Below, piece by piece: positions 2,573 through 12,876 of a stretch of DNA of 64,000 nt. The notes under the pieces were generated by a model. It worked only from the letters and a program-made list of their open reading frames with translations. It was not told the origin of the DNA and ran no database searches. The DNA is from Rhodospirillaceae bacterium SYSU D60007. GTDB lineage: Bacteria > Pseudomonadota > Alphaproteobacteria > Reyranellales > Reyranellaceae. Location of the stretch: assembly GCA_003574685.1 (NCBI GenBank), contig QOCQ01000017.1, positions 1 to 64,000 on the forward strand. Direction: 5' to 3'. Made by a program: the position numbers and the translations under genes. The first letter of the stretch is position 1, and the number at the start of each line of letters is the position of its first letter.

Positions 2573-3457
2573 GTGTCCGCTTTGCCGTCCGCGATCGAAC
2601 CGGCGCGGCTGGCCACGCTCGACCGCGGCTATCGCGAGGCCGTGCGTGCCCGCCGCTCACGCGCGGTACTGATCGGCCTCGCCATCGTTCTCTGCACGAT
2701 GCTCTCCGCCATCTCGGCGGAGGTCGAGCCGGCCACGCTGTTCGCCAATATCGGCAAGTTCACCAGCTATATCGGCCGCATCTTCGTGCTGGAGAACGGC
2801 CAGCCCGTATGGACCAGGCCGGCCGAATGGTTCTGGGGTCTGGAGGACTGGCTCTCGCTGCTGCTGGAAACCGTGCTGATCGCCTATGTCGGCACGGCGC
2901 TGGGCACCGCTGGCGCCGTCGTCCTGGCATTCTTCGCGGCGGCCAATCTGTCGCCGCATCCTGTGCTGCGCGCCGTCACCCGCCGCTGGCTGGAGTTCTG
3001 CCGCACCTTCCCCGAACTGGTCTTCGCGCTGATTTTCGTGATCGCCTTCGGGCTCGGGCCGCTGCCCGGCGTGCTGGCGATCGCCATCCACAGCATGGGT
3101 GCGCTGGGCAAGCTGTTCTCCGAAGTCGCGGAGAACATCGACTTGAAGCCGGTGGAGGGCGTCGCCGCCACCGGCGCGAGCTGGCCGGTGGTGGTGCGCT
3201 TCGGCGCTCTGCCGCAGGTCCTGCCGAACTTCGTGAGCTACACGCTGCTGCGCTTCGAGATCAACGTGCGCGGCGCTTCGGTGATGGGCTTTGTCGGCGC
3301 CGGCGGCATCGGCCAGGACCTGATCGAGGCCATCCGCAAGTTCTACTATGCTGATGTCTCGGCCATCCTTGTGCTGATCATTGTCACCGTCGCGCTGATC
3401 GATTTCATCACCGAACGCGTGCGGCACCGCCTGGGCGACAGCGGAGCACCGGCATGA
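2573..3457 (+). CDS. phnE: Phosphonate ABC transporter permease PhnE (first)
   Basis: An inner-membrane permease of the phosphonate importer. The 294-residue product has about six hydrophobic segments. Its C-terminal third carries the permease coupling loop (VEGVAATGASWPVVVRFG, residues about 193-210) and the PhnE-type ending GFVGAGGIGQDL. The start is GTG 2573, 16 bases after the phnD stop; no better ATG exists before the first membrane segment. It overlaps the next permease by 4 bases (ATGA). Two different permeases probably form a heterodimer with PhnC. Confidence 0.9.
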   Translation: MSALPSAIEPARLATLDRGYREAVRARRSRAVLIGLAIVLCTMLSAISAEVEPATLFANIGKFTSYIGRIFVLENGQPVWTRPAEWFWGLEDWLSLLLETVLIAYVGTALGTAGAVVLAFFAAANLSPHPVLRAVTRRWLEFCRTFPELVFALIFVIAFGLGPLPGVLAIAIHSMGALGKLFSEVAENIDLKPVEGVAATGASWPVVVRFGALPQVLPNFVSYTLLRFEINVRGASVMGFVGAGGIGQDLIEAIRKFYYADVSAILVLIIVTVALIDFITERVRHRLGDSGAPA

Positions 3458-4242
3458 AGGATCGTACCGCCCTTGCCGTGGGCCTCGCGCTGGTGGCCGT
3501 CCTTGTCTATGGCATGGCGCGGCTGGGCTTCTTCGATCCCCGCCTGATCGATGGCGTCGGCCAGCTCGGATCGCTGTTCGGCATGATGCTGCCGCCCGAT
3601 CCGGGTTCCTGGGACCGCGCGACCATCTACCTCAAGGCGCTGGGCGAGACGCTGGCCATTGCCTTTCTGGGCACGTTGCTGGCGGCGATCCTGGCGTTTC
3701 CGGTGGGCTTTCTGGCGGCGCGCAATGTGGTTGCGAACCGCATCGTGCATTTCCTCTCGCGCCGCTCGCTCGACACGCTGCGCGGCGTTGATGTGCTGAT
3801 CTGGGCGCTGATCTGGATCAACGTCGTGGGCCTGGGGCCGTTCGCCGGCGTGCTGGCGCTGATGACCTCCGATCTCGGCACCTTCGGCAAGCTGTTCTCG
3901 GAAGCGATCGAGGCGTCCGACCGCCGGCCGGTGGAGGGCGTCGCCTCGACCGGCGGCGGGAGGCTGCAGCGAATTCGCTTCGGCATCCTGCCGGGCGTGC
4001 TGCCGCTGATGGCAAGCCAGGTCCTGTACTACATCGAATCCAACACCCGCTCAGCCACCATCATCGGCATCGTCGGGGCCGGCGGCATCGGCCTGCACCT
4101 CGCCGAGCAGATCCGCACGCTCGAGTTCCAGCAGGTGGCGTTCATCATCCTGCTGGTGCTGATCGCCGTCGCTGCCATCGACTGGCTCTCCACCCGCCTG
4201 CGCCTCGCCCTGATCGGTCGCGGCCGTGTGGCGAGGGCGTAA
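3454..4242 (+). CDS. phnE: Phosphonate ABC transporter permease PhnE (second)
   Basis: The second permease of the same importer, 262 residues, with an N-terminal membrane segment and about five more. It has the coupling loop VEGVASTGGGRLQRIRFG and the motif GIVGAGGIGLHL, closely paralleling the first permease. Its ATG overlaps the stop of the preceding gene (ATGA), so translation is probably coupled. It is the last gene of the transporter unit; an inverted-repeat spacer separates it from the convergent phnF. Confidence 0.9.
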   Translation: MKDRTALAVGLALVAVLVYGMARLGFFDPRLIDGVGQLGSLFGMMLPPDPGSWDRATIYLKALGETLAIAFLGTLLAAILAFPVGFLAARNVVANRIVHFLSRRSLDTLRGVDVLIWALIWINVVGLGPFAGVLALMTSDLGTFGKLFSEAIEASDRRPVEGVASTGGGRLQRIRFGILPGVLPLMASQVLYYIESNTRSATIIGIVGAGGIGLHLAEQIRTLEFQQVAFIILLVLIAVAAIDWLSTRLRLALIGRGRVARA

Positions 4243-4435: not shown

Positions 4436-5149
4436 TCAGAACTCCACCACGAAGGTCATGAGGTCACCCAGCATGCGGCCGTGGCCGACGTCGATGGGGC
4501 GGCCGTCGGGCTCGACATTGACGCTGTCGGTCACCAGCATGGCGCAGCCGCGCCGTACGCCCAGGACGCGCGCATCGGCGGCGCTGATGAGCTGGGCCGA
4601 GATGCGCGTGGTGCGGCGCCGGTAGTCGGGCACGCCGCAGCGGCGCAGGGCGGCCGTGATCGAGCGCTCGGCGCGGAAGGCCTCGACGATATCGGGCACG
4701 CGTGCCTTCACGAAGTAGTGGCTGACGATGCCCACCGGCCGCTCGTCGGCGAGACTGAGAACCTCCAGACGGATCAGCGGCGTGTCCGCCGGCACCTCCA
4801 GTGCGGCGGCGATGGCGGTGTCGCCGGTGATCTCCTTCGCGTTCAACAGACGGCGCGATGGGCGGCGCTGCGCCTGGCCGACATTGTCGCTGAAGCGGGT
4901 GCGCTGGGTGACGGCGTAATTGATCGGCGGGTCGGGCACGAAGATGCCGCGGCCCTGCTCGGCACGCAGCACCCCCTCATTCTCGAGGTGCGCCACGGCC
5001 TGGCGCAGGGTGTGCCGGTTCACGTGGAAGCGTTCGGCCAGCGCGTACTCGCCGGGCAGGCGGTCGCCCGGCTTCCATTTGCCGGAGCGGATGTTCGCGG
5101 TCAGCTTGTCGGCGATCTGGCGCCATTTCGGCTGCTGCTTGTCAGGCAT
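4436..5149 (-). CDS. phnF: GntR/HutC-family regulator PhnF
   Basis: Likely repressor of phosphonate use. The 237-residue product has an N-terminal GntR winged helix (residues 8-75; GDRLPGEYALAERFHVNRHT, then LENEGVLRAEQGRGIFV) and a C-terminal UTRA ligand-binding domain (about 95-230). It is transcribed away from phnG, with only 94 bases between the two starts. A palindrome TTGTATAGACAA lies in that gap and closely resembles the operator published for mycobacterial PhnF (TGGTATAGACCA, from memory). Regulation of both phnF and phnG from this site is inferred. Confidence 0.9.
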   Translation of the reverse strand: MPDKQQPKWRQIADKLTANIRSGKWKPGDRLPGEYALAERFHVNRHTLRQAVAHLENEGVLRAEQGRGIFVPDPPINYAVTQRTRFSDNVGQAQRRPSRRLLNAKEITGDTAIAAALEVPADTPLIRLEVLSLADERPVGIVSHYFVKARVPDIVEAFRAERSITAALRRCGVPDYRRRTTRISAQLISAADARVLGVRRGCAMLVTDSVNVEPDGRPIDVGHGRMLGDLMTFVVEF

Positions 5150-5243: not shown

Positions 5244-5696
5244 ATGGCAACGCAAACCGACACGGCCCGTCGCCAGCGGCACCTTGCGGTGCTGGCGCGC
5301 GCCGGGCGCGGCCTGCTCGAGGACGCCTTCGCACTCGTCCAGCCGGCGCCCCGCTACGAGGTGGTGAAACCGGCCGAAACAGGGCTGGTGATGGTGCGGG
5401 GACGTGCGGGCGGCACCGGCGGGCAGTTCAACATGGGCGAGATGACGGTGACGCGTTGCGTGGTGCGCAGCGAACAGGGGGTAATCGGCGTCGGCTATAT
5501 CGCGGGCCGCGACCGGCGCAAGGCCGAGCTGGTCGCGGTCTTCGACGCCCTGCTGCAGGATCCTTCCCGTTCGCCGCAGCTTGAGCGGGAGGTGATCGCG
5601 CCGGCCGAGCAGCGCCGCCGGGAGCGGCAGGCCGCGATCCGCGCGCGCGCCGCCGCCACGCGCGTCGATTTCTTCACTGTGATGCGCGGGGAATGA
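5244..5696 (+). CDS. phnG: C-P lyase core subunit PhnG
   Basis: A small subunit of the PhnGHIJ core complex. With PhnI, PhnH and PhnL it makes ribose 1-phosphonate 5-triphosphate from ATP and a phosphonate. The 150-residue product matches the family length. It has the PhnG features GLVMVRGRAGGTGGQFNMGEMTVTR (cited as a region, residues about 48-72) and GVGYIAGRDRRKAEL. It is the first gene of the lyase operon and overlaps phnH by 4 bases. Its transcription probably begins near the PhnF operator. Confidence 0.93.
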   Translation: MATQTDTARRQRHLAVLARAGRGLLEDAFALVQPAPRYEVVKPAETGLVMVRGRAGGTGGQFNMGEMTVTRCVVRSEQGVIGVGYIAGRDRRKAELVAVFDALLQDPSRSPQLEREVIAPAEQRRRERQAAIRARAAATRVDFFTVMRGE

Positions 5697-6283
5697 TCAT
5701 GGACCATGCCGTTCTGCCCGGCTTTGCCGACGCCGTACCCGATGCGCAGGGCGCGTTCCGTGCGCTGCTGGAGGCGATGTCGCATCCGGGGCGTATCGTT
5801 GCGGTGCCGCCGGCACTCGCCGTGCCCGCCGGATTTGATCCGGCGACGGCGGCGCTGCTGCTGACGCTGTGCGATAGTGATACGCCGGTGTGGCTCGATG
5901 CCGCCGCCGAACCGGCCGCTCCGTGGCTCGCCTTCCATACCGGCGCGCCGCGTGCCGGGCAGCCATCCGCCGCGAGTTTCGCCGTCGTCCTGTCGCCCGC
6001 GACGATGCCGCCGCTCGATGCCTTCAACTGGGGTACGGACGAGGTGCCCGAAGCCAGCACGACGCTGATCGTGCAGGTCTCGCGGTTGAGCGATGGCGCG
6101 ACGTGGCGCCTGCGCGGACCGGGCATCAAGAGCGAAGCGCAGCTTTCCGTCGCCGGCCTGTCACAGGACTGGGTTAGGCAACGCGCTGCACTCCCGGTGG
6201 CGTTCCCGCGTGGCGTCGACGTCGTGTTCACCTCGGGGCAGCTTATCGCCGCCCTGCCGCGCACGACGATGCTGGAGGCCTGA
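5693..6283 (+). CDS. phnH: C-P lyase core subunit PhnH
   Basis: A core-complex subunit with a PLP-transferase-like fold but, in the family, no PLP; it is needed for the ribosylation step. The 196-residue product begins DHAVLPGFADAVPDAQGAFR and contains LEAMSHPGR, both typical. Starts at 5693 (overlapping phnG as ATGA) and 5699 differ by only two residues; 5699 gives the usual MDHAV start. The next gene, phnI, begins one base after its stop. Confidence 0.92.
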   Translation: MIMDHAVLPGFADAVPDAQGAFRALLEAMSHPGRIVAVPPALAVPAGFDPATAALLLTLCDSDTPVWLDAAAEPAAPWLAFHTGAPRAGQPSAASFAVVLSPATMPPLDAFNWGTDEVPEASTTLIVQVSRLSDGATWRLRGPGIKSEAQLSVAGLSQDWVRQRAALPVAFPRGVDVVFTSGQLIAALPRTTMLEA

Positions 6284-6284
6284 C

Positions 6285-7388
6285 ATGTACGTGGCGGTGA
6301 AAGGCGGCGAACGCGCGATCGCGAACGCCCATGCCTGGCTGGCCGAGGAGCGGCGCGGCGATCCTGATGTGCCCGAGCTCAGCATCGCGCAAATCCGCGA
6401 GCAGCAGCGGCTGGCGGTGGACCGTGTGATGACCGAGGGATCGCTTTACGATCCCGACCTCGCGGCGCTGGCCCTGAAGCAGGCGCGCGGCGACCAGGTC
6501 GAGGCCATCTTCCTGCTGCGCGCCTATCGCACCACGCTGCCGCGCTTCGGCAGCAGCCTGCCGCTGGATACCGGTGGCATGTGCGTGCGCCGGCGCGTCT
6601 CGGCGATCTTCAAGGATGTGCCGGGCGGGCAGGTGCTGGGACCGACCTTCGACTATACGCACCGCCTGCTCGACTTCGCGCTGGCCGCGGAAGGTGATCC
6701 CGCGCCGGCGCCGCGGGCCGACGCGCCGCTTGCGGAGACGCTGCCGGGCGTGATCGACGTGCTGAACAGGGAAGGCCTGATCGAAACGGAAGCGGCATCT
6801 GACAATGCGCTGCCGCCGCCCGACCTGACGCGCGAGCCGCTGCGTTTTCCTGCAGCGCGCGCCATGCGCTTGCAGAACCTGGCGCGCGGCGATGAAGGTT
6901 TCCTGCTGGCGCTGGGCTATTCGACCCAGCGGGGTTACGGCCGCAATCATCCCTTTGCCGGCGAGATCCGTTACGGCGAGGTGGCGGTGAGCTTCGTGCC
7001 GCCGGAGCTGGGTTTCGAGATCGAGCTGGGCGATATCGAGCTCACCGAATGCCAGATGGTGAACCAGTTCGCCGGTTCGAAGAATGAACCGCCGCAATTC
7101 ACCCGCGGCTATGGTGTCAGCTTCGGCCATGGCGAGCGCAAGGCGATGTCCATGGCGCTGGTCGATCGCGCGCTGCGGGCGGCCGAGCTGGGCGAGGAGA
7201 CGGATTCGCCGGCGCAGGATGCGGAGTTCGTGCTCTATCACAGCGACAACGTGGAGGCGCAGGGCTTCGTGCAGCACCTCAAGCTGCCGCACTACGTCGA
7301 TTTCCAGTCCGAGCTGAACGTGGTGCGCGGCATGCGGCGTGCCGCGGCCGAAGCGGCGGAAGCAGCCCTGGCGGAGGCCGCGGAATGA
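6285..7388 (+). CDS. phnI: C-P lyase core subunit PhnI
   Basis: A core subunit with nucleosidase activity; it displaces the purine base of ATP/GTP so that phosphonate is placed on C1 of ribose triphosphate. The 367-residue product starts MYVAVKGGERAI, matching the family, and this start follows the phnH stop by one base. Family features include DPDLAALALKQARGDQVEAIFLLRAYRTT near the N-terminus (residues about 53-81), GYGRNHPFAGEIR and SFGHGERKAMSMALVDRAL. It overlaps phnJ by 4 bases. Confidence 0.94.
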   Translation: MYVAVKGGERAIANAHAWLAEERRGDPDVPELSIAQIREQQRLAVDRVMTEGSLYDPDLAALALKQARGDQVEAIFLLRAYRTTLPRFGSSLPLDTGGMCVRRRVSAIFKDVPGGQVLGPTFDYTHRLLDFALAAEGDPAPAPRADAPLAETLPGVIDVLNREGLIETEAASDNALPPPDLTREPLRFPAARAMRLQNLARGDEGFLLALGYSTQRGYGRNHPFAGEIRYGEVAVSFVPPELGFEIELGDIELTECQMVNQFAGSKNEPPQFTRGYGVSFGHGERKAMSMALVDRALRAAELGEETDSPAQDAEFVLYHSDNVEAQGFVQHLKLPHYVDFQSELNVVRGMRRAAAEAAEAALAEAAE

Positions 7389-8443
7389 ACCACACATCAG
7401 CCCTCGCTGGCGAAGAAGGCTACAACTTCGCTTTCCTCGACGAGCAGACCAAGCGGATGATCCGCCGCGCCATCCTCAAGGCGGTGGCGATCCCCGGTCA
7501 TCAGATCCCGTTCGGCAGCCGCGAGATGCCGCTGAGCTACGGCTGGGGCACCGGCGGCATCCAGCTCACCGCCGCCGTGATCGGCCGGGACGATACGCTG
7601 AAGGTGATCGACCAGGGCGCAGACGACACCACCAATGCCGTCAGCATCCGCGGCTTCTTCCGACGCATGACAGGCGTGCGCACCACCGAGCGCACCGACG
7701 AGGCCACCGTCGTGCAGACGCGGCACCGTATTCCCGAGACGCCGCTCAGCGAGGGCCAGATCATCGTCTACCAGGTGCCGATTCCCGAGCCGCTGCGCTG
7801 GCTGGAGCCGCGCGAAAGCGAGACCCGCAAGATGCACGGGCTGGCCGAGTACGGCGCCATGCACGTGAAGCTCTACGAGGATATCGTGCGCTACGGCCGC
7901 ATCGAGACGGCCTACGACTATCCCGTGCTGGTGAACGGCCGCTACCTGATGCGGCCATCACCGATCCCCAAGTTCGACAATCCCAAGATGGACCGCATGC
8001 CGGCGCTGCAGCTCTTCGGCGCCGGCCGCGAGAAGCGCATCTATGCGGTGCCGCCCTATACCGAAGTCAAGTCGCTGGATTTCGAGGATCATCCCTTCGA
8101 GGTCGAGCGCTGGGAGCAAAGCTGCGCGCTCTGCGGCTCAAACGACAGCTTCCTCGACGAGATCGTGACCGACGACCAGGGCGGACACGCCTTCGTCTGC
8201 TCCGACACCGACTACTGCACCCGCCGCCGCGCCGCTGGCCATGAGGGCGAGGGCATGCCGGAAGGCTACCTGCAGCCGAGCGAGGCGGCGGAAGTGTTGC
8301 ACCATCCCCCTTCCGCCCTTCGGGCACCTTCCCCCTCCGGGGGAAGGGATTCTGACCTTCCCCCGGAGGGGGAAGGTGGCGCGCAGCGCCGGAAGGGGGA
8401 TGCCTCCTCAGGCACGGCGTTCAGGGCGGGGCTCAGGCCATGA
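7385..8443 (+). CDS. phnJ: C-P lyase radical-SAM enzyme PhnJ with repeat-derived tail
   Basis: Cleaves the C-P bond of the ribosyl phosphonate using S-adenosylmethionine, an iron-sulfur cluster and a thiyl radical. The cysteines CALC, then C after 21 residues, then C after 5 more (within AFVCSDTDYC) reproduce the spacing of the E. coli cluster and radical cysteines. The product is 352 residues against 281 in E. coli. From about residue 303 the frame runs through a palindromic intergenic repeat (8294-8424), giving a low-complexity Pro/Ser/Gly/Arg tail with no family similarity. The stop then overlaps phnK as ATGA, so coupling is kept. The catalytic core looks intact. Confidence 0.93.
   Translation: MNHTSALAGEEGYNFAFLDEQTKRMIRRAILKAVAIPGHQIPFGSREMPLSYGWGTGGIQLTAAVIGRDDTLKVIDQGADDTTNAVSIRGFFRRMTGVRTTERTDEATVVQTRHRIPETPLSEGQIIVYQVPIPEPLRWLEPRESETRKMHGLAEYGAMHVKLYEDIVRYGRIETAYDYPVLVNGRYLMRPSPIPKFDNPKMDRMPALQLFGAGREKRIYAVPPYTEVKSLDFEDHPFEVERWEQSCALCGSNDSFLDEIVTDDQGGHAFVCSDTDYCTRRRAAGHEGEGMPEGYLQPSEAAEVLHHPPSALRAPSPSGGRDSDLPPEGEGGAQRRKGDASSGTAFRAGLRP
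8294..8424. repeat. Palindromic repeat pair inside the phnJ 3' end (copy 2)
   Basis: Module A (8294-8348) and module B (8355-8424) match the reverse complements of 1459-1513 and 1535-1602 with few mismatches, including a shared core CGCGCAGCGCCGGAAGGGGG. The reading frame of phnJ stays open through both. This is a mobile or dispersed palindrome captured as coding sequence. Confidence 0.85.
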
Positions 8444-9216
8444 GCGAGCAGGCGGTGCTGGAGGTGCGGGGGCTGACGCGGCGGTTTGGGCTGCGTACGG
8501 CGGTGCGCGATGTCGCCTTCGAGCTGTGGCCGGGCGAGGTGCTGGGTATCGTGGGCGAATCAGGGTCGGGCAAGACCACGCTGCTGAACTGCATCGGCGG
8601 GCGGCTGCCGGCTGACCACGGGTCGGTCATGTACAGGACGGCGGCCGGTTACAGCGTCGACATGCTGGCGTTGCCTGAAGCGGAGCGCCGCAAGCTGCTG
8701 CGCACCGAATGGGGCTTCGTGCACCAGAACCCGCGCGACGGGCTGCGGCTTGATGTCAGCGCCGGCGGCAATGTCGGCGAGCGGCTGATGGCGCTGGGCC
8801 ACCGGCACTACGGCAGGCTGCGCCAGGCGGCGGTCGACTGGCTGGAGCATGTGGAGATCGAGACGGCGCGCGTGGACGATCCGCCGCGCGCCTTTTCCGG
8901 CGGCATGCAGCAGCGCCTGCAGATCGCGCGCAACCTGGTGACCCATCCCCGTGTGGTGCTGATGGATGAGCCCACGGGCGGGCTGGACGTTTCGGTGCAG
9001 GCACGGCTGCTGGACCTGCTGCGTCGGCTGGTGCGCGAGATCGGCGTGTCGGCGGTGATCGTGACCCACGATCTGGGCGTGGCACGCCTGCTGGCCGACC
9101 GCCTGCTGGTGATGAAGGGCGGCGAGGTGGTGGAAGGGGGACTCACCGATCGCCTGCTCGACGATCCGCATCATCCCTACACTCAACTCCTCGTTTCCTC
9201 CGCGCTTTCGGTGTGA
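8440..9216 (+). CDS. phnK: C-P lyase ABC-type ATPase PhnK
   Basis: An ABC-type ATPase that, in E. coli, docks on the PhnGHIJ core through PhnJ rather than on a membrane permease. The 258-residue product has Walker A GESGSGKTT (about residues 40-48), signature FSGGMQQRLQIARNL and Walker B VVLMDEPTGGLD. Its ATG overlaps phnJ (ATGA), and the phnL start overlaps its end. The cluster's real importer ATPase is PhnC, which fits a lyase-associated role here. Confidence 0.92.
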   Translation: MSEQAVLEVRGLTRRFGLRTAVRDVAFELWPGEVLGIVGESGSGKTTLLNCIGGRLPADHGSVMYRTAAGYSVDMLALPEAERRKLLRTEWGFVHQNPRDGLRLDVSAGGNVGERLMALGHRHYGRLRQAAVDWLEHVEIETARVDDPPRAFSGGMQQRLQIARNLVTHPRVVLMDEPTGGLDVSVQARLLDLLRRLVREIGVSAVIVTHDLGVARLLADRLLVMKGGEVVEGGLTDRLLDDPHHPYTQLLVSSALSV

Positions 9217-9218
9217 CC

Positions 9219-9929
9219 ATGCGTGCCGACGATCCGGTGTTGCGTATCAGAAGCCTGCACAAGAGCTTCACCCTGCATCTGCGCGGCGGCGTGCGCATCG
9301 ATGCGCTGCGTGGCGTCGATCTCGACCTGTTTCCGGCCGAATGCCTGGTGCTGCGCGGTCCCTCGGGCGCCGGCAAGAGCACGCTGATGCGCTGCGTCTA
9401 CGGCAACTATGCCGCCGATGGCGGCAGCATCCGCCTGGCGCACGAGGGCGGGTGGGCCGAGCTGGTGGGGGCCGCGCCGCGCCTGGTTCACGCTCTGCGC
9501 CAGCGCACGCTGGGTTATGTCAGCCAGTTCCTGCGCGTGATCCCGCGCGTGCCGGCGCTCGACATCGTCGCCGAGCCGCTGCTGATGCGCGGCGTGGCGG
9601 CGGAGCACGCCCGGCGCAAGGCGGCGGCATTGCTGGAACGACTGAACATTCCCACCCGGCTGTTCGACCTGCCGCCTGCCACTTTCTCCGGCGGCGAGCA
9701 GCAGCGCGTCAACATTGCGCGCGTGTTCATTGCCCGCTATCCCGTCCTGTTGCTGGACGAGCCGACCGCCTCCCTGGACGAAGCCAACCGTGCCGTGGTG
9801 ATCGATCTGGTGCAGGAGGCCAGGCGCGACGGGGCGGCCATTCTCGCGATCCTGCATGACCCGGCGGCGCGCGAGGCGCTGGCGACGCGGGTCTTCGATC
9901 TGGCGCCACGGCTGGCGGAGGTGGCCTGA
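9219..9929 (+). CDS. phnL: C-P lyase ABC-type ATPase PhnL
   Basis: The second lyase-associated ABC ATPase; with PhnG, PhnH and PhnI it supports formation of the ribosyl phosphonate. The product is about 236 residues with Walker A GPSGAGKST, signature FSGGEQQRVNIAR and Walker B VLLLDEPTASLD. Start 9219 (MRADDPVLRIRSLHKSFTLH) is preferred; GTG 9213, overlapping the phnK stop, would add two residues. It overlaps phnM by one base (TGATG). Confidence 0.92.
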   Translation: MRADDPVLRIRSLHKSFTLHLRGGVRIDALRGVDLDLFPAECLVLRGPSGAGKSTLMRCVYGNYAADGGSIRLAHEGGWAELVGAAPRLVHALRQRTLGYVSQFLRVIPRVPALDIVAEPLLMRGVAAEHARRKAAALLERLNIPTRLFDLPPATFSGGEQQRVNIARVFIARYPVLLLDEPTASLDEANRAVVIDLVQEARRDGAAILAILHDPAAREALATRVFDLAPRLAEVA

Positions 9930-11065
9930 TGGCCGAGCTGGTTTTGACCGGTGCGCGCATTGTCACGCCGGAGGCGGTGATCGACGGCGCGCTCGTGGCG
10001 CGCGACGGCAGGATCGTCGCCGTCGAGTCCGGTCGCGCGACGGCCGGCGAAGCGCTGGACGGCGACTATCTGATCCCCGGCCTGGTCGAGCTGCACACGG
10101 ACAACATGGAGCGGCACTTCGCGCCGCGGCCGGGCGTGCGCTGGCCCGCCGTGTCGGCGGCGCTGGCGCATGACGCGCAGATCGCTGCGGCCGGCATCAC
10201 CACGGTGTTTGACGCGATCTCTCTGGGCTCCCTCCAGGACTACGACGTGCGTGTCACGGCGCTCACCGAGATGCTGTCGGGCCTGCGCACCGCGCGCGAC
10301 AACGGCATGCTGCGCAGCGACCATCTGCTGCACCTGCGCTGCGAGGTGAGTTATCCCGGCATGACGCGGCTTCTGGAGGACATGATCGACGATGCGCATG
10401 TGCGGCTGGTCTCAGTCATGGACCACACGCCCGGCCAGCGCCAGTTCGTCAACCCGGATAAGTACCGCGAGTACTGGAAGGGCAAGAACGGCTTCAGCGA
10501 TACCGAGCTGGAGGCTTACCTCGCGATGTCGCGCCAGCGCGGCGAACGCCACAGCGCCGAGAACCGCCGCGCCGTAGTCAGCCTGTGCGCGGGCCGCAAG
10601 CTGCCGCTGGCCAGCCACGACGATGCGACGCCAGAGCATGTTGCCGAGGCGCTTGCCGATGGCATGGTGGTAGCAGAATTTCCCACCACGATCGAGGCGG
10701 CGCGGCTCTCGCGCGACGGCGGCATGAAGGTGGTGATGGGCGGGCCCAACCTCGTGCGGGGCGGCTCGCATTCCGGCAACATCTCTGCCGGCGTCCTGGC
10801 CGAACACGGGCTGCTGGATATCGTCTCGTCCGACTATGTGCCCAACAGCCTGCTGGAATCCGCGTTCAAGCTGGCGCGCGATTTTCCCGGGATCACGCTG
10901 CCGCAGGCGATGGCCGCAGTTTCGGTGACGCCGGCAGAAGCTGTCGGACTGAACGACCGCGGCGCCATAAAGCCCGGTCGGCGCGCCGATCTCGTGCGCG
11001 TGCGCGTGGTCGATGGCCAGCCGGTCGTACGCGCCGTGTGGTGCGATGGCGTGAGGGTGGCGTGA
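9929..11065 (+). CDS. phnM: Ribosyl phosphonate triphosphate diphosphatase PhnM
   Basis: An amidohydrolase-fold enzyme that removes pyrophosphate from ribose 1-phosphonate 5-triphosphate, giving the substrate of PhnJ. The 378-residue length equals the E. coli enzyme. It shows LIPGLVELHTDNMERHF with the metal-binding histidine, VMDHTPGQRQF, SHDDATPEHV and the C-terminal GAIKPGRRADLVRV typical of this family. Its start overlaps phnL (TGATG) and its stop shares one base with the next start. Confidence 0.94.
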   Translation: MAELVLTGARIVTPEAVIDGALVARDGRIVAVESGRATAGEALDGDYLIPGLVELHTDNMERHFAPRPGVRWPAVSAALAHDAQIAAAGITTVFDAISLGSLQDYDVRVTALTEMLSGLRTARDNGMLRSDHLLHLRCEVSYPGMTRLLEDMIDDAHVRLVSVMDHTPGQRQFVNPDKYREYWKGKNGFSDTELEAYLAMSRQRGERHSAENRRAVVSLCAGRKLPLASHDDATPEHVAEALADGMVVAEFPTTIEAARLSRDGGMKVVMGGPNLVRGGSHSGNISAGVLAEHGLLDIVSSDYVPNSLLESAFKLARDFPGITLPQAMAAVSVTPAEAVGLNDRGAIKPGRRADLVRVRVVDGQPVVRAVWCDGVRVA

Positions 11066-11610
11066 TGACTCTCGACGAGGCGTTCGCGTTACTGGGCCGT
11101 GCCGGCGCCCGGCAGTACGGCGGCGAACAGGTATCACAACTGGCGCACGCGCTGCAGACAGCGACGCTGGCGATGGAAGCCGGTGAGGCGGCACCGCTGG
11201 TCATTGCAGCGCTGTTCCACGACATCGGCCATCTGCTGGGCGAGGGTGATCACGGCCAGGCCGAGCGCGGCATTGATGCCCGTCACGAGGACCGTGGTGC
11301 CGAAGCGTTGCGACCGCTGTTCGGCAAGGCGGTTGCCGAGACGGTGCGCCTGCATGTCCCGGCCAAGCGCTGGCTCTGCTTCGCCGAGGGCGGCTACTGG
11401 GATTCGCTGTCGCGCGGCTCCAAGGCAAGTCTGGCCGTACAGGGTGGTCCCTTCGACGCCATCGAGGCCGGGCAATTCATGCGCCAGCCCCATGCGGGCG
11501 CGGCTGTACGGCTGCGCCGGTACGATGATCTGGCCAAGATTCGCGGGCGCGGCACGCCGGGCCTTGACGAGTTCCGCGGCTGGGCGACGGCCGTGCGTGC
11601 CGATGGCTGA
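11065..11610 (+). CDS. HD-domain phosphonate oxygenase, PhnZ-like
   Basis: A 181-residue HD-domain protein of the group found in phosphonate operons (TIGR03276). It has Tyr18, Glu21, His28, His52-Asp53, His56, His74, His97, Lys101, Ser119 and Asp154. These line up with the PhnZ residues I recall: gate Tyr24/Glu27; iron ligands His34, His58, Asp59, His80, His104, Asp161; substrate contacts His62, Lys108, Ser126. A one-residue gap is needed after His74. PhnZ is a mixed-valent diiron oxygenase that splits alpha-hydroxyphosphonates to a carbon acid and phosphate. The PhnY hydroxylase that normally feeds it is absent. The gene overlaps phnM and phnN. The substrate is unknown. Confidence 0.85.
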   Translation: MTLDEAFALLGRAGARQYGGEQVSQLAHALQTATLAMEAGEAAPLVIAALFHDIGHLLGEGDHGQAERGIDARHEDRGAEALRPLFGKAVAETVRLHVPAKRWLCFAEGGYWDSLSRGSKASLAVQGGPFDAIEAGQFMRQPHAGAAVRLRRYDDLAKIRGRGTPGLDEFRGWATAVRADG

Positions 11611-12193
11611 TGGACGGCGGCTCATCCTGGTGGTCGGCGCCAGCGGTGCGGGCAAGGACAGCCTCATCCGCGGTGCGCGGGCTGCGCTGGCGGGACGCGA
11701 AGACGTGGTCTTTCCGCGTCGTGTGATTACCCGGCCGGCCGATGCCAGCGGCACGGAGGATCACGAGCCCTGCGATGCGGCTGCGTTTCAGCAGCGCCTG
11801 GCCGCCGGCGAGTTCGCGCTGCACTGGATGGCCAACGGACTTTCCTACGGCGTGCCCGTTCATATCGAGCGCGACCTAAAGGCCGGCCGCGCCGTTGTCG
11901 TCAACGTCTCGCGCGGCATTGTTCCGGCCGCCGAGCATCGCTTTCCGGGCCTGTGCGTCTGCGTGGTGAGCGCGCCGGCAGCACTGCGCGCCGCGCGCCT
12001 GCACGAGCGCGGGCGCGAATCCATTGAGGACGTGACGGCGCGCCTGCATCGGGCCGATGCTTTCCCTGTCACCGCCCGTGAGATGCGCGAGATCTGCAAC
12101 GACGGTCCGCTTGCTGTCGGCGTGGGCGCGCTGGTGGACATTATCCTGGCGCGGCTGGACGACGCTCAGGTGTCGGCGGCGGCCAGCGGATAG
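11603..12193 (+). CDS. phnN: Ribose 1,5-bisphosphate phosphokinase PhnN
   Basis: Phosphorylates ribose 1,5-bisphosphate to PRPP, which returns the lyase pathway product to nucleotide synthesis. The 196-residue P-loop kinase has Walker A VVGASGAGKDS (residues about 10-20), the guanylate-kinase-like strand RRVITRPADASGTEDHEPCDAAAF (cited as a region, about residues 38-61) and YGVPVHIERDL. ATG 11603 overlaps the preceding gene by 8 bases. Its last 28 bases overlap the convergent DUF1045 gene. Confidence 0.9.
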   Translation: MADGRRLILVVGASGAGKDSLIRGARAALAGREDVVFPRRVITRPADASGTEDHEPCDAAAFQQRLAAGEFALHWMANGLSYGVPVHIERDLKAGRAVVVNVSRGIVPAAEHRFPGLCVCVVSAPAALRAARLHERGRESIEDVTARLHRADAFPVTAREMREICNDGPLAVGVGALVDIILARLDDAQVSAAASG

Positions 12194-12876
12194 CGCGACA
12201 TCTGAAGGAAAGGGGCCTTCGGCGAAGGCTCGGCAAACAGCCACAACGCATCGATCGTCACGGGCTGCGCGAGGGCGGGCGCGAGATATTCCGCCAGCGC
12301 CTGCCGGACGCGCGGCCGGATCGCGGAATCGAGTCTGCCCGTCAGCGTGAAGTGCAGGCGGAAATCGTCCATCACGTAGGGATAGCCCCACCGCGCGAGG
12401 TTGCTTTCCTGCCGCGCCGTCAGGCCGGTAGCACGCCGGCGGTTCAGCTCCGTGGCGTCGGGCGGCCGGCGGAAATCATCGAAGGCTCGCACGACATCGT
12501 CGGCCAGGGCGCGCAGCGCAGGCGGCTCCATCACCGGCCGCAACGCGAGGAATCCCGAGAGCTCGGCCACCTCAAGCCTGCCCAGCGGAACCGCGGCGCG
12601 CGTAGCGGCAAAACCGCGCAACGCCTCGTGCAGGGCTTCGGCGGGCTGAGTGTCGGCCAGACGAAAGGGCGGCTTCAGGGTCGCATGAAAGCCGTAGCGT
12701 GCGGGCTCGGCCGTCCACGCCGCCGCAGCGCTTTCATCGATGCCATCGAGGCGGGAACGCGGCACTTCGACACCGCGCGCGGCATCTCGGCCCAGCCAGG
12801 CGCTGGCGAGCCTGTGCAGCAGACTGTCGGGATCGGCGGCGGCGTAGATGGCAAAGCGGTACACGGCGAATATCAC
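12166..12876 (-). CDS. DUF1045 protein, 2H phosphoesterase-like
   Basis: A member of the DUF1045 family, which is often found in phn clusters. The 236-residue product has two H-x-T-x motifs, GFHATLK (near residue 76) and LHFTLT (near residue 180), the catalytic pair of the 2H phosphoesterase fold. Such enzymes usually open or cut cyclic or linear phosphodiesters. No PhnP is seen in the window, so this protein may open the ribose 1,2-cyclic phosphate made by PhnJ; that is inference. Start GTG 12876 overlaps the deoA stop (GTGA); GTG 12864 (VYRFAIY) is an alternative. Its 3' end overlaps phnN on the other strand. Confidence 0.8.
   Translation of the reverse strand: MIFAVYRFAIYAAADPDSLLHRLASAWLGRDAARGVEVPRSRLDGIDESAAAAWTAEPARYGFHATLKPPFRLADTQPAEALHEALRGFAATRAAVPLGRLEVAELSGFLALRPVMEPPALRALADDVVRAFDDFRRPPDATELNRRRATGLTARQESNLARWGYPYVMDDFRLHFTLTGRLDSAIRPRVRQALAEYLAPALAQPVTIDALWLFAEPSPKAPFLQMSRYPLAAADT

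Follow-up and report, generated by a model that had tools for sequence, protein, structure and literature searches.

Among described enzymes, the closest to the protein considered here are PhnZ (HF130_AEPn_1; PDB 4mln, 4n6w and 4n71), which works with PhnY*, and TmpB from Leisingera caerulea (PDB 6npa), whose partner is TmpA; corresponding gene pairs are a PhyH–HD pair in Rhodococcus and a TmpA–HD pair in Labrenzia. Further points of reference are GmPhnZ1, a hydroxymethylphosphonate (HMP) dioxygenase represented by the model NF052439, and the family TIGR03276, named "phosphonate degradation HD-domain oxygenase". A member of the latter, Achromobacter PhnHD, is encoded beside a phosphonatase operon, and modelling predicted 1-hydroxy-2-aminoethylphosphonate (HAEP) as its substrate (PMC11203657). 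Genome surveys have also touched on these genes: in a listing from 19,425 complete genomes, phnY*Z clusters numbered 7, compared with 15 phnWX and 24 phnWAY clusters that had phnZ (PMC8154272), and Lockwood et al. 2022 reported that phnZ co-occurs with C–P lyase genes (21%) and that some C–P lyase operons contain substrate-specific genes (PMC9381506).

Here we describe an HD-domain gene inside a C–P lyase cluster, found in a 64,000-nucleotide stretch of the genome of Rhodospirillaceae bacterium SYSU D60007, which we call the window. The cluster begins with phnC (571–1419, +; TIGR02315, 310.6 bits), phnD (1645–2556, +, ATG start inferred; TIGR03431, 365 bits) and two copies of phnE (2573–3457 and 3454–4242, both +; TIGR01097, 288 and 274 bits), passes the divergent regulator gene phnF (4436–5149, −; TIGR02325, 252 bits), and continues on the forward strand with phnG (5244–5696; PF06754, 166.5 bits), phnH (5693–6283; PF05845, 218 bits), phnI (6285–7388, ATG start inferred; PF05861, 549 bits), phnJ (7385–8443; PF06007, 496 bits), phnK (8440–9216; TIGR02323, 380 bits), phnL (9213–9929; TIGR02324, 308 bits) and phnM (9929–11065; TIGR02318, 466 bits). 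The HD gene follows, and then phnN (11603–12193, +; TIGR02322, 190 bits) and a convergent DUF1045 gene (12166–12876, −, GTG start inferred; TIGR03223, 260.8 bits), whose product is a LigT-like phosphoesterase that also exceeds the cut-off of PF06299 and matches the LigT and 2_5_RNA_ligase2 models weakly, below theirs. With phn genes on both sides scoring above the cut-offs of their family models, the C–P lyase operon setting assigned in the first-pass annotation is supported; for phosphonatase, the best match in the genome was 45 bits against a cut-off of 220. The HD gene itself (11065–11610, +) encodes 181 amino acids without an internal stop, predicted to form a PhnZ/TmpB-like oxygenase with TIGR03276 as its nearest model. 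It lies between phnM and phnN and overlaps both, as had been read at first pass: its ATG (11065–11067) shares one base with the phnM TGA (11063–11065; TGATG), and its stop codon (11608–11610) and the phnN ATG at 11603 give an overlap of 8 bases.

Aligned to PhnZ, the HD protein has every residue that the first-pass annotation had listed for a PhnZ-like site (HD/PhnZ pairs Y18/Y24, E21/E27, H28/H34, H52-D53/H58-D59, H56/H62, H74/H80, H97/H104, K101/K108, S119/S126 and D154/D161) and matches beyond that list at R102/R109, Q126/Q133 and R151/R158; all 14 compared site residues are identical. The single-residue gap described earlier also holds as a net shift, the numbering offset being 6 through H74 and 7 from H97, with three single-residue gaps in the HMMER alignment of which two cancel out. 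The iron-ligand set is complete (H28, H52-D53, H74, H97 and D154), and the remaining site residues are H56, K101, R102, S119, Q126 and R151, of which we take K101, S119 and Q126 to play the parts of the Lys, Ser and Gln of a PhnZ-type site. The gate reads Y18-G-G-E21, an instance of the YxxE motif described in PMC8177086, and the roles of PhnZ His62 and Arg158 are given in PMC7916636. By alignment with the roles in these two papers (PMC7916636, PMC8177086), His74 and His97 would hold one iron and His28, His52 and Asp154 the other, with Asp53 as the bridge, whereas Tyr18 would cap the O2 site and depart upon substrate binding, Glu21 would swing toward an amine, and His56 would contact the hydroxyl. 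In a phmmer search of the PDB, the HD protein matched TmpB (E = 7.5e-29) and PhnZ (E = 2e-20) and no other protein at E ≤ 10, values from which we conclude that the likeness of the site is not due to chance.

Of the 127 rows in a selected set, which counted the window protein, PhnZ and TmpB and left out unlabelled alphaproteobacterial HD proteins, rows of up to 120 amino acids and identical rows, 121 keep all 14 residues, and these residues are all invariant in an alignment of the window protein with 63 of the best 80 named relatives. Glu21 is kept in 55 of the 57 C–P lyase-labelled rows, the window protein counted, and is often replaced among the unlabelled alphaproteobacterial HD proteins outside that set; of 49 alphaproteobacterial HD proteins, 12 have another residue at this position, and two of these 12 are C–P lyase-linked. 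Structurally, the AlphaFold2 model (mean pLDDT 91, pTM 0.89; 64-row alignment) had ten Foldseek matches at E ≤ 0.001, all of them PhnZ or TmpB chains (E 1.7e-11 to 1.1e-9, TMq 0.82–0.86), and the overlay on PhnZ proposed at first pass fits, with a VIA-align Z of 25.8 and 1.8 Å over 173 residues (TmpB, Z 25.5; range over PhnZ and TmpB, 24.3–25.8; next family, MIOX, Z 11.1). A published caution against the reading as an oxygenase is that the H..HD..H..H..D motif does not mark such enzymes with absolute reliability (PMC11203657). Taken together, the site residues and the predicted fold support the PhnZ-type diiron oxygenase site claimed at first pass, and an oxygenase reading of the HD protein is well supported by sequence and model.

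Among NCBIfam models, TIGR03276 scored highest at 204.9 bits, short of its cut-off of 214.6, which further phosphonate-linked proteins miss as well (for example, 203.1 and 213.8 bits); the HD protein also reached 146.4 bits with NF052439 and 140.8 bits with NF049941 (TmpB), far below their equivalog cut-offs of 300, and we count these shortfalls against the explanation favoured below. With TIGR03276 members it shares the top-scoring model, the whole set of site residues and adjoining phosphonate catabolism genes. Achromobacter PhnHD differs in its phosphonatase neighbourhood, where the window gene lies among C–P lyase genes, and resembles it in that the accessible text of PMC11203657 mentions no PhnY partner. 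PhnZ has the same fold (Z about 25), six ligands and YxxE, the His56/His62 pair and the same Lys, Ser, Gln and Arg, but its identity to the window protein is about 31%, its operon context is another, and no counterpart of its partner PhnY* was found here. TmpB, the top PDB match by sequence, agrees in fold and site; its partner TmpA was likewise not found in the genome, and at positions 25 and 130 the window protein has Gln and Phe, against Met in most TmpA-linked rows. GmPhnZ1, finally, belongs to the same superfamily and matches over almost the full length in the model comparison, but the genome has no convincing methylphosphonate hydroxylase.

The first-pass annotation treated the find as specific to this operon, a view that is too strong: the arrangement is common and the nearest NCBIfam family is already named an oxygenase, so the pairing of such a gene with C–P lyase genes, recurrent in many bacteria and like a named family, is mostly ordinary and its newness low. 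The accessible text of PMC9381506, which does describe C–P lyase operons with a substrate-specific gene, names neither the order phnM–HD–phnN nor the absence of PhnY. In a census of 190 alphaproteobacterial genomes, 70 had TIGR03276 matches at E ≤ 0.001, and the 49 matches of at least 130 bits (41 genomes) were analysed as HD loci, weaker ones being left out. Ten of the 31 genomes with phnJ had the pairing, with a linked HD gene in 10 of their 32 phnJ loci (one locus being a 3-kb contig). Not counted as linked were two HD genes lying 26 kb from phnJ (L056 in G162, L057 in G033), whose products have Cys for the last Asp ligand, Gln for His56, Ala for Ser119 and Gly for Gln126 and, judging from these changes, are perhaps no longer oxygenases. 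Close to home, the order phnM–HD–phnN–DUF1045 is kept in every genome sampled from the window's genus (four, counting its own) and from a sister genus (another four); in a third genus of the family, the HD protein is only 43–49% identical, and one C–P lyase locus of that genus (G186) is without HD between phnM and phnN.

We also compared the best 80 of 533 confirmed named relatives, a sample biased toward the nearest and with many contigs cut, in which the closest was from Reyranella sp. CPCC 100927 (78% identical). At least two C–P lyase core genes lay in the flank of 40 of these best 80, cyanobacteria, betaproteobacteria and SAR11 included, and the gene directly upstream on the same strand was phnM in 19 and phnE in 17; with these 36 cases, the HD gene goes with C–P lyase and phosphonate import. 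In the SAR11 loci, the lyase genes (phnG) start about 7 kb from HD, with PhnX in the same flank, and the two are neighbours, not one operon. Homologues annotated with the TIGR03276 name stand in C–P lyase clusters on a Variovorax plasmid and a Nostoc plasmid; the latter plasmid is typed conjugative, and its cluster (L132) also holds, at 7333–7755, a gene annotated as a fosfomycin resistance glutathione transferase (FosA8-like, 51%). Elsewhere the HD gene adjoins phnX and a flavin oxidase (Comamonas, Asticcacaulis), and further relatives adjoin PhnX, TIGR03364-type flavin oxidases or an aldehyde dehydrogenase. When ten neighbour proteins were scanned in eight unlabelled loci, four had an upstream aldehyde dehydrogenase (Collimonas, Caballeronia, Burkholderia and Rhodospirillaceae, with a downstream flavin oxidase too in Collimonas), the other neighbours being a LysR regulator, an aminotransferase, DUF5690, a carbohydrate phosphorylase and one protein without a family. 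We infer that these aldehyde dehydrogenases belong to phosphonoacetaldehyde routes, and take the theme common to PhnX, the flavin oxidases and the aldehyde dehydrogenases to be aminophosphonates. In two loci (L054, L110), HD directly adjoins phnC-phnD(-phnE) with no C–P lyase core genes in the stretch examined, an arrangement that suggests PhnCDE to be sufficient for supplying the oxygenase.

Regarding the partner hydroxylase, the first-pass annotation had reported PhnY to be missing and proposed a full-genome search, which gave no convincing PhnY or TmpA. Queried with the models NF052437 (PhnY) and NF049936 (TmpA) and with Rhodococcus PhnY, which is encoded beside an HD gene and itself scores 257.8 bits to NF052437, the genome returned no score above 51 bits for NF052437 or 28.7 bits for NF049936 (537 and 543 for the latter in two control genomes), and its best match to Rhodococcus PhnY had 31% identity (E = 1.8e-11). 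The PhnY search had no strong internal control, since the model cut-off of 500 was reached in none of 20 genomes and three hoped-for positives gave no match, no match and 33 bits. These low scores weigh against the HD protein being the second half of a PhnY–PhnZ or TmpA–TmpB pathway in which a hydroxylase encoded at another place in the genome would produce the substrate by acting on 2-AEP, methylphosphonate or trimethyl-AEP, an arrangement that we consider unlikely. The genome does encode ten generic PhyH-family oxygenases, among which there may therefore be an unrecognised hydroxylase, but seven of them score highest with other models (ectoine hydroxylase, chlorinating enzyme, 1-deoxypentalenate hydroxylase; all below cut-off), three match no model and none has the PhnY model on top. 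Relatives speak for such a pathway to some extent, in that, among 17 genomes searched that have a C–P lyase-linked HD gene, G087 encodes, on a separate contig, a PhnY that is fairly convincing (194 bits, below the 500-bit cut-off) and G001 and G148 have TmpA above the cut-off beside a second HD gene, and two own-genus relatives carry PhyH genes 3.5 and 7 kb from the C–P lyase HD gene. The latter two genes (L178, 10919–11968, −; L179, 11004–11987, −; sharing 69% identity) do not resemble PhnY in sequence (phmmer ≤35 bits to Rhodococcus PhnY), have no close counterpart among the window genome's ten (best about 32%), and are the only PhyH genes in the flanks of the best 80 of 533 named relatives, where no TmpA or PhnY-like gene was found. 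TmpA was near 13 of the 49 alphaproteobacterial HD loci, with a weak PhyH match near one; it was found in none of the 32 phnJ loci, and neither TmpA nor PhyH in the flanks of the ten C–P lyase-linked HD loci. A PhnY gene adjoining HD is rare among the relatives examined, and, given the result for the ten linked loci, the lack of PhnY alongside most relatives and the 7 phnY*Z clusters in the survey cited above (PMC8154272), we rejected the idea that its absence here is an oddity.

Could the HD protein instead hydrolyse a C–P lyase intermediate, as a phosphodiesterase that performs the PhnP step, the opening of 5-phosphoribosyl-1,2-cyclic phosphate, ahead of PhnN? The operon has no phnP, the HD gene adjoins phnN, and phosphohydrolases make up the majority of known HD proteins (PMC8177086), but the predicted fold is of the oxygenase type, 22 of the 32 phnJ loci are without a linked HD gene, the Nostoc plasmid locus has HD with no phnN annotated or found, and PhnP exceeded its cut-off in 0 of 38 C–P lyase genomes, with or without linked HD, whereas the E. 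coli control did exceed it. Because PhnP is also missing where no HD gene is linked, the HD protein does not replace it, and we regard the hydrolase role as very improbable and rejected it as a PhnP substitute. Weaker PhnP-like matches of at most 94 bits occur in all 38 genomes. The LigT-like DUF1045 protein, whose gene is present in 23 of the 32 alphaproteobacterial phnJ loci (16 of 22 without HD, 7 of 10 with), would be a better candidate than the HD protein and may perform the ring-opening. Evolutionarily, a quick tree of the 127 rows, in which many forks are open and some long branches come together, placed the window protein in a starred clade of 8 C–P lyase-linked rows; a larger group, drawn open (support 85), mixes C–P lyase, PhnX and unlabelled rows, another open group (support 83) holds all 27 TmpA rows and one C–P lyase row (L081), and PhnZ clusters with six sequences labelled flavin oxidase, a label based on the reading of one of their six loci (L148). 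The C–P lyase label changes 11 times on this tree, where labels were partly set by hand (L183, L198, L208, L217, L221 and L239 moved from "none" to C–P lyase, some of them showing only phnCDE or phnM in view); a single C–P lyase clade was not found, and these changes, with the mixing, indicate that there is no single C–P lyase subgroup. The same mixing, and the grouping of L081 with TmpA rows, tell against C–P lyase-linked members being functional subgroups that keep the oxygenase chemistry on another, undescribed alpha-hydroxyphosphonate; such a reading draws on G19, Q25, A29 and F130, mostly common to C–P lyase-labelled rows and unlike TmpA-linked rows, on the position of C–P lyase rows largely apart from TmpB and PhnZ, and on the low scores to the PhnZ1 and TmpB equivalogs, and strikes us as rather improbable. 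Judging from the tree, switches of partner pathway seem to have happened repeatedly in the family, in keeping with an accessory role.

We therefore return to the HD protein as a probable accessory mixed-valent diiron oxygenase, which would split an (R)-alpha-hydroxyphosphonate imported by PhnCDE into a carboxylate and phosphate, a proposal built on sequence and predicted structure. Mechanistically, the gene would be co-transcribed with the C–P lyase cluster, and the substrate would be made elsewhere and enter through PhnCDE; its phosphonate and hydroxyl oxygens would bind one iron, Tyr18 would leave the other, where O2 would bind, and abstraction of the alpha-hydrogen would lead to C–P cleavage, releasing phosphate and carboxylate. 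The gain to the cell would be an extra phosphorus source or the removal of a compound that is toxic or badly handled by C–P lyase. Our literature search, with most subscription papers outside its coverage, returned no activity report for a C–P lyase-linked member. As to the substrate, (R)-HAEP, yielding glycine, seems somewhat likelier than HMP, yielding formate, since relatives accompany aminophosphonate routes, Glu21, whose counterpart touches the amine in PhnZ and TmpB, is kept, PhnWX deals badly with (R)-HAEP, and racemic HAEP is reported to slow or prevent growth of E. coli (PMC8154272). Glu21 does not discriminate between the two, being Glu also in the PhnY-adjacent HD protein of Rhodococcus (206 bits, HMP dioxygenase model), and no residues separating HAEP use from HMP use were found in the 127-row set. 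Nothing found favours HMP, the example substrate of the first-pass annotation, over (R)-HAEP.

If correct, this C–P lyase cluster would also carry a second, oxygen-using enzyme that cleaves C–P bonds. More broadly, and with clearly less confidence, we tentatively suggest that in C–P lyase operons of several phyla a PhnY-independent diiron oxygenase may form a standing second C–P cleavage route, and that the same route may clear imported alpha-hydroxyphosphonates that C–P lyase cannot use or that inhibit it. Orphan PhnZ-like genes would then mark an environmental pool of alpha-hydroxyphosphonates and not 2-AEP oxidation. At least one large survey of marine data assigns phnZ to 2-AEP catabolism (PMC9381506), and another finds only one PhnZ subclade specific for that pathway (PMC8316502); if phnZ-like genes are in many cases orphans whose substrates are alpha-hydroxyphosphonates available ready-made, such phnZ counts would measure something else.
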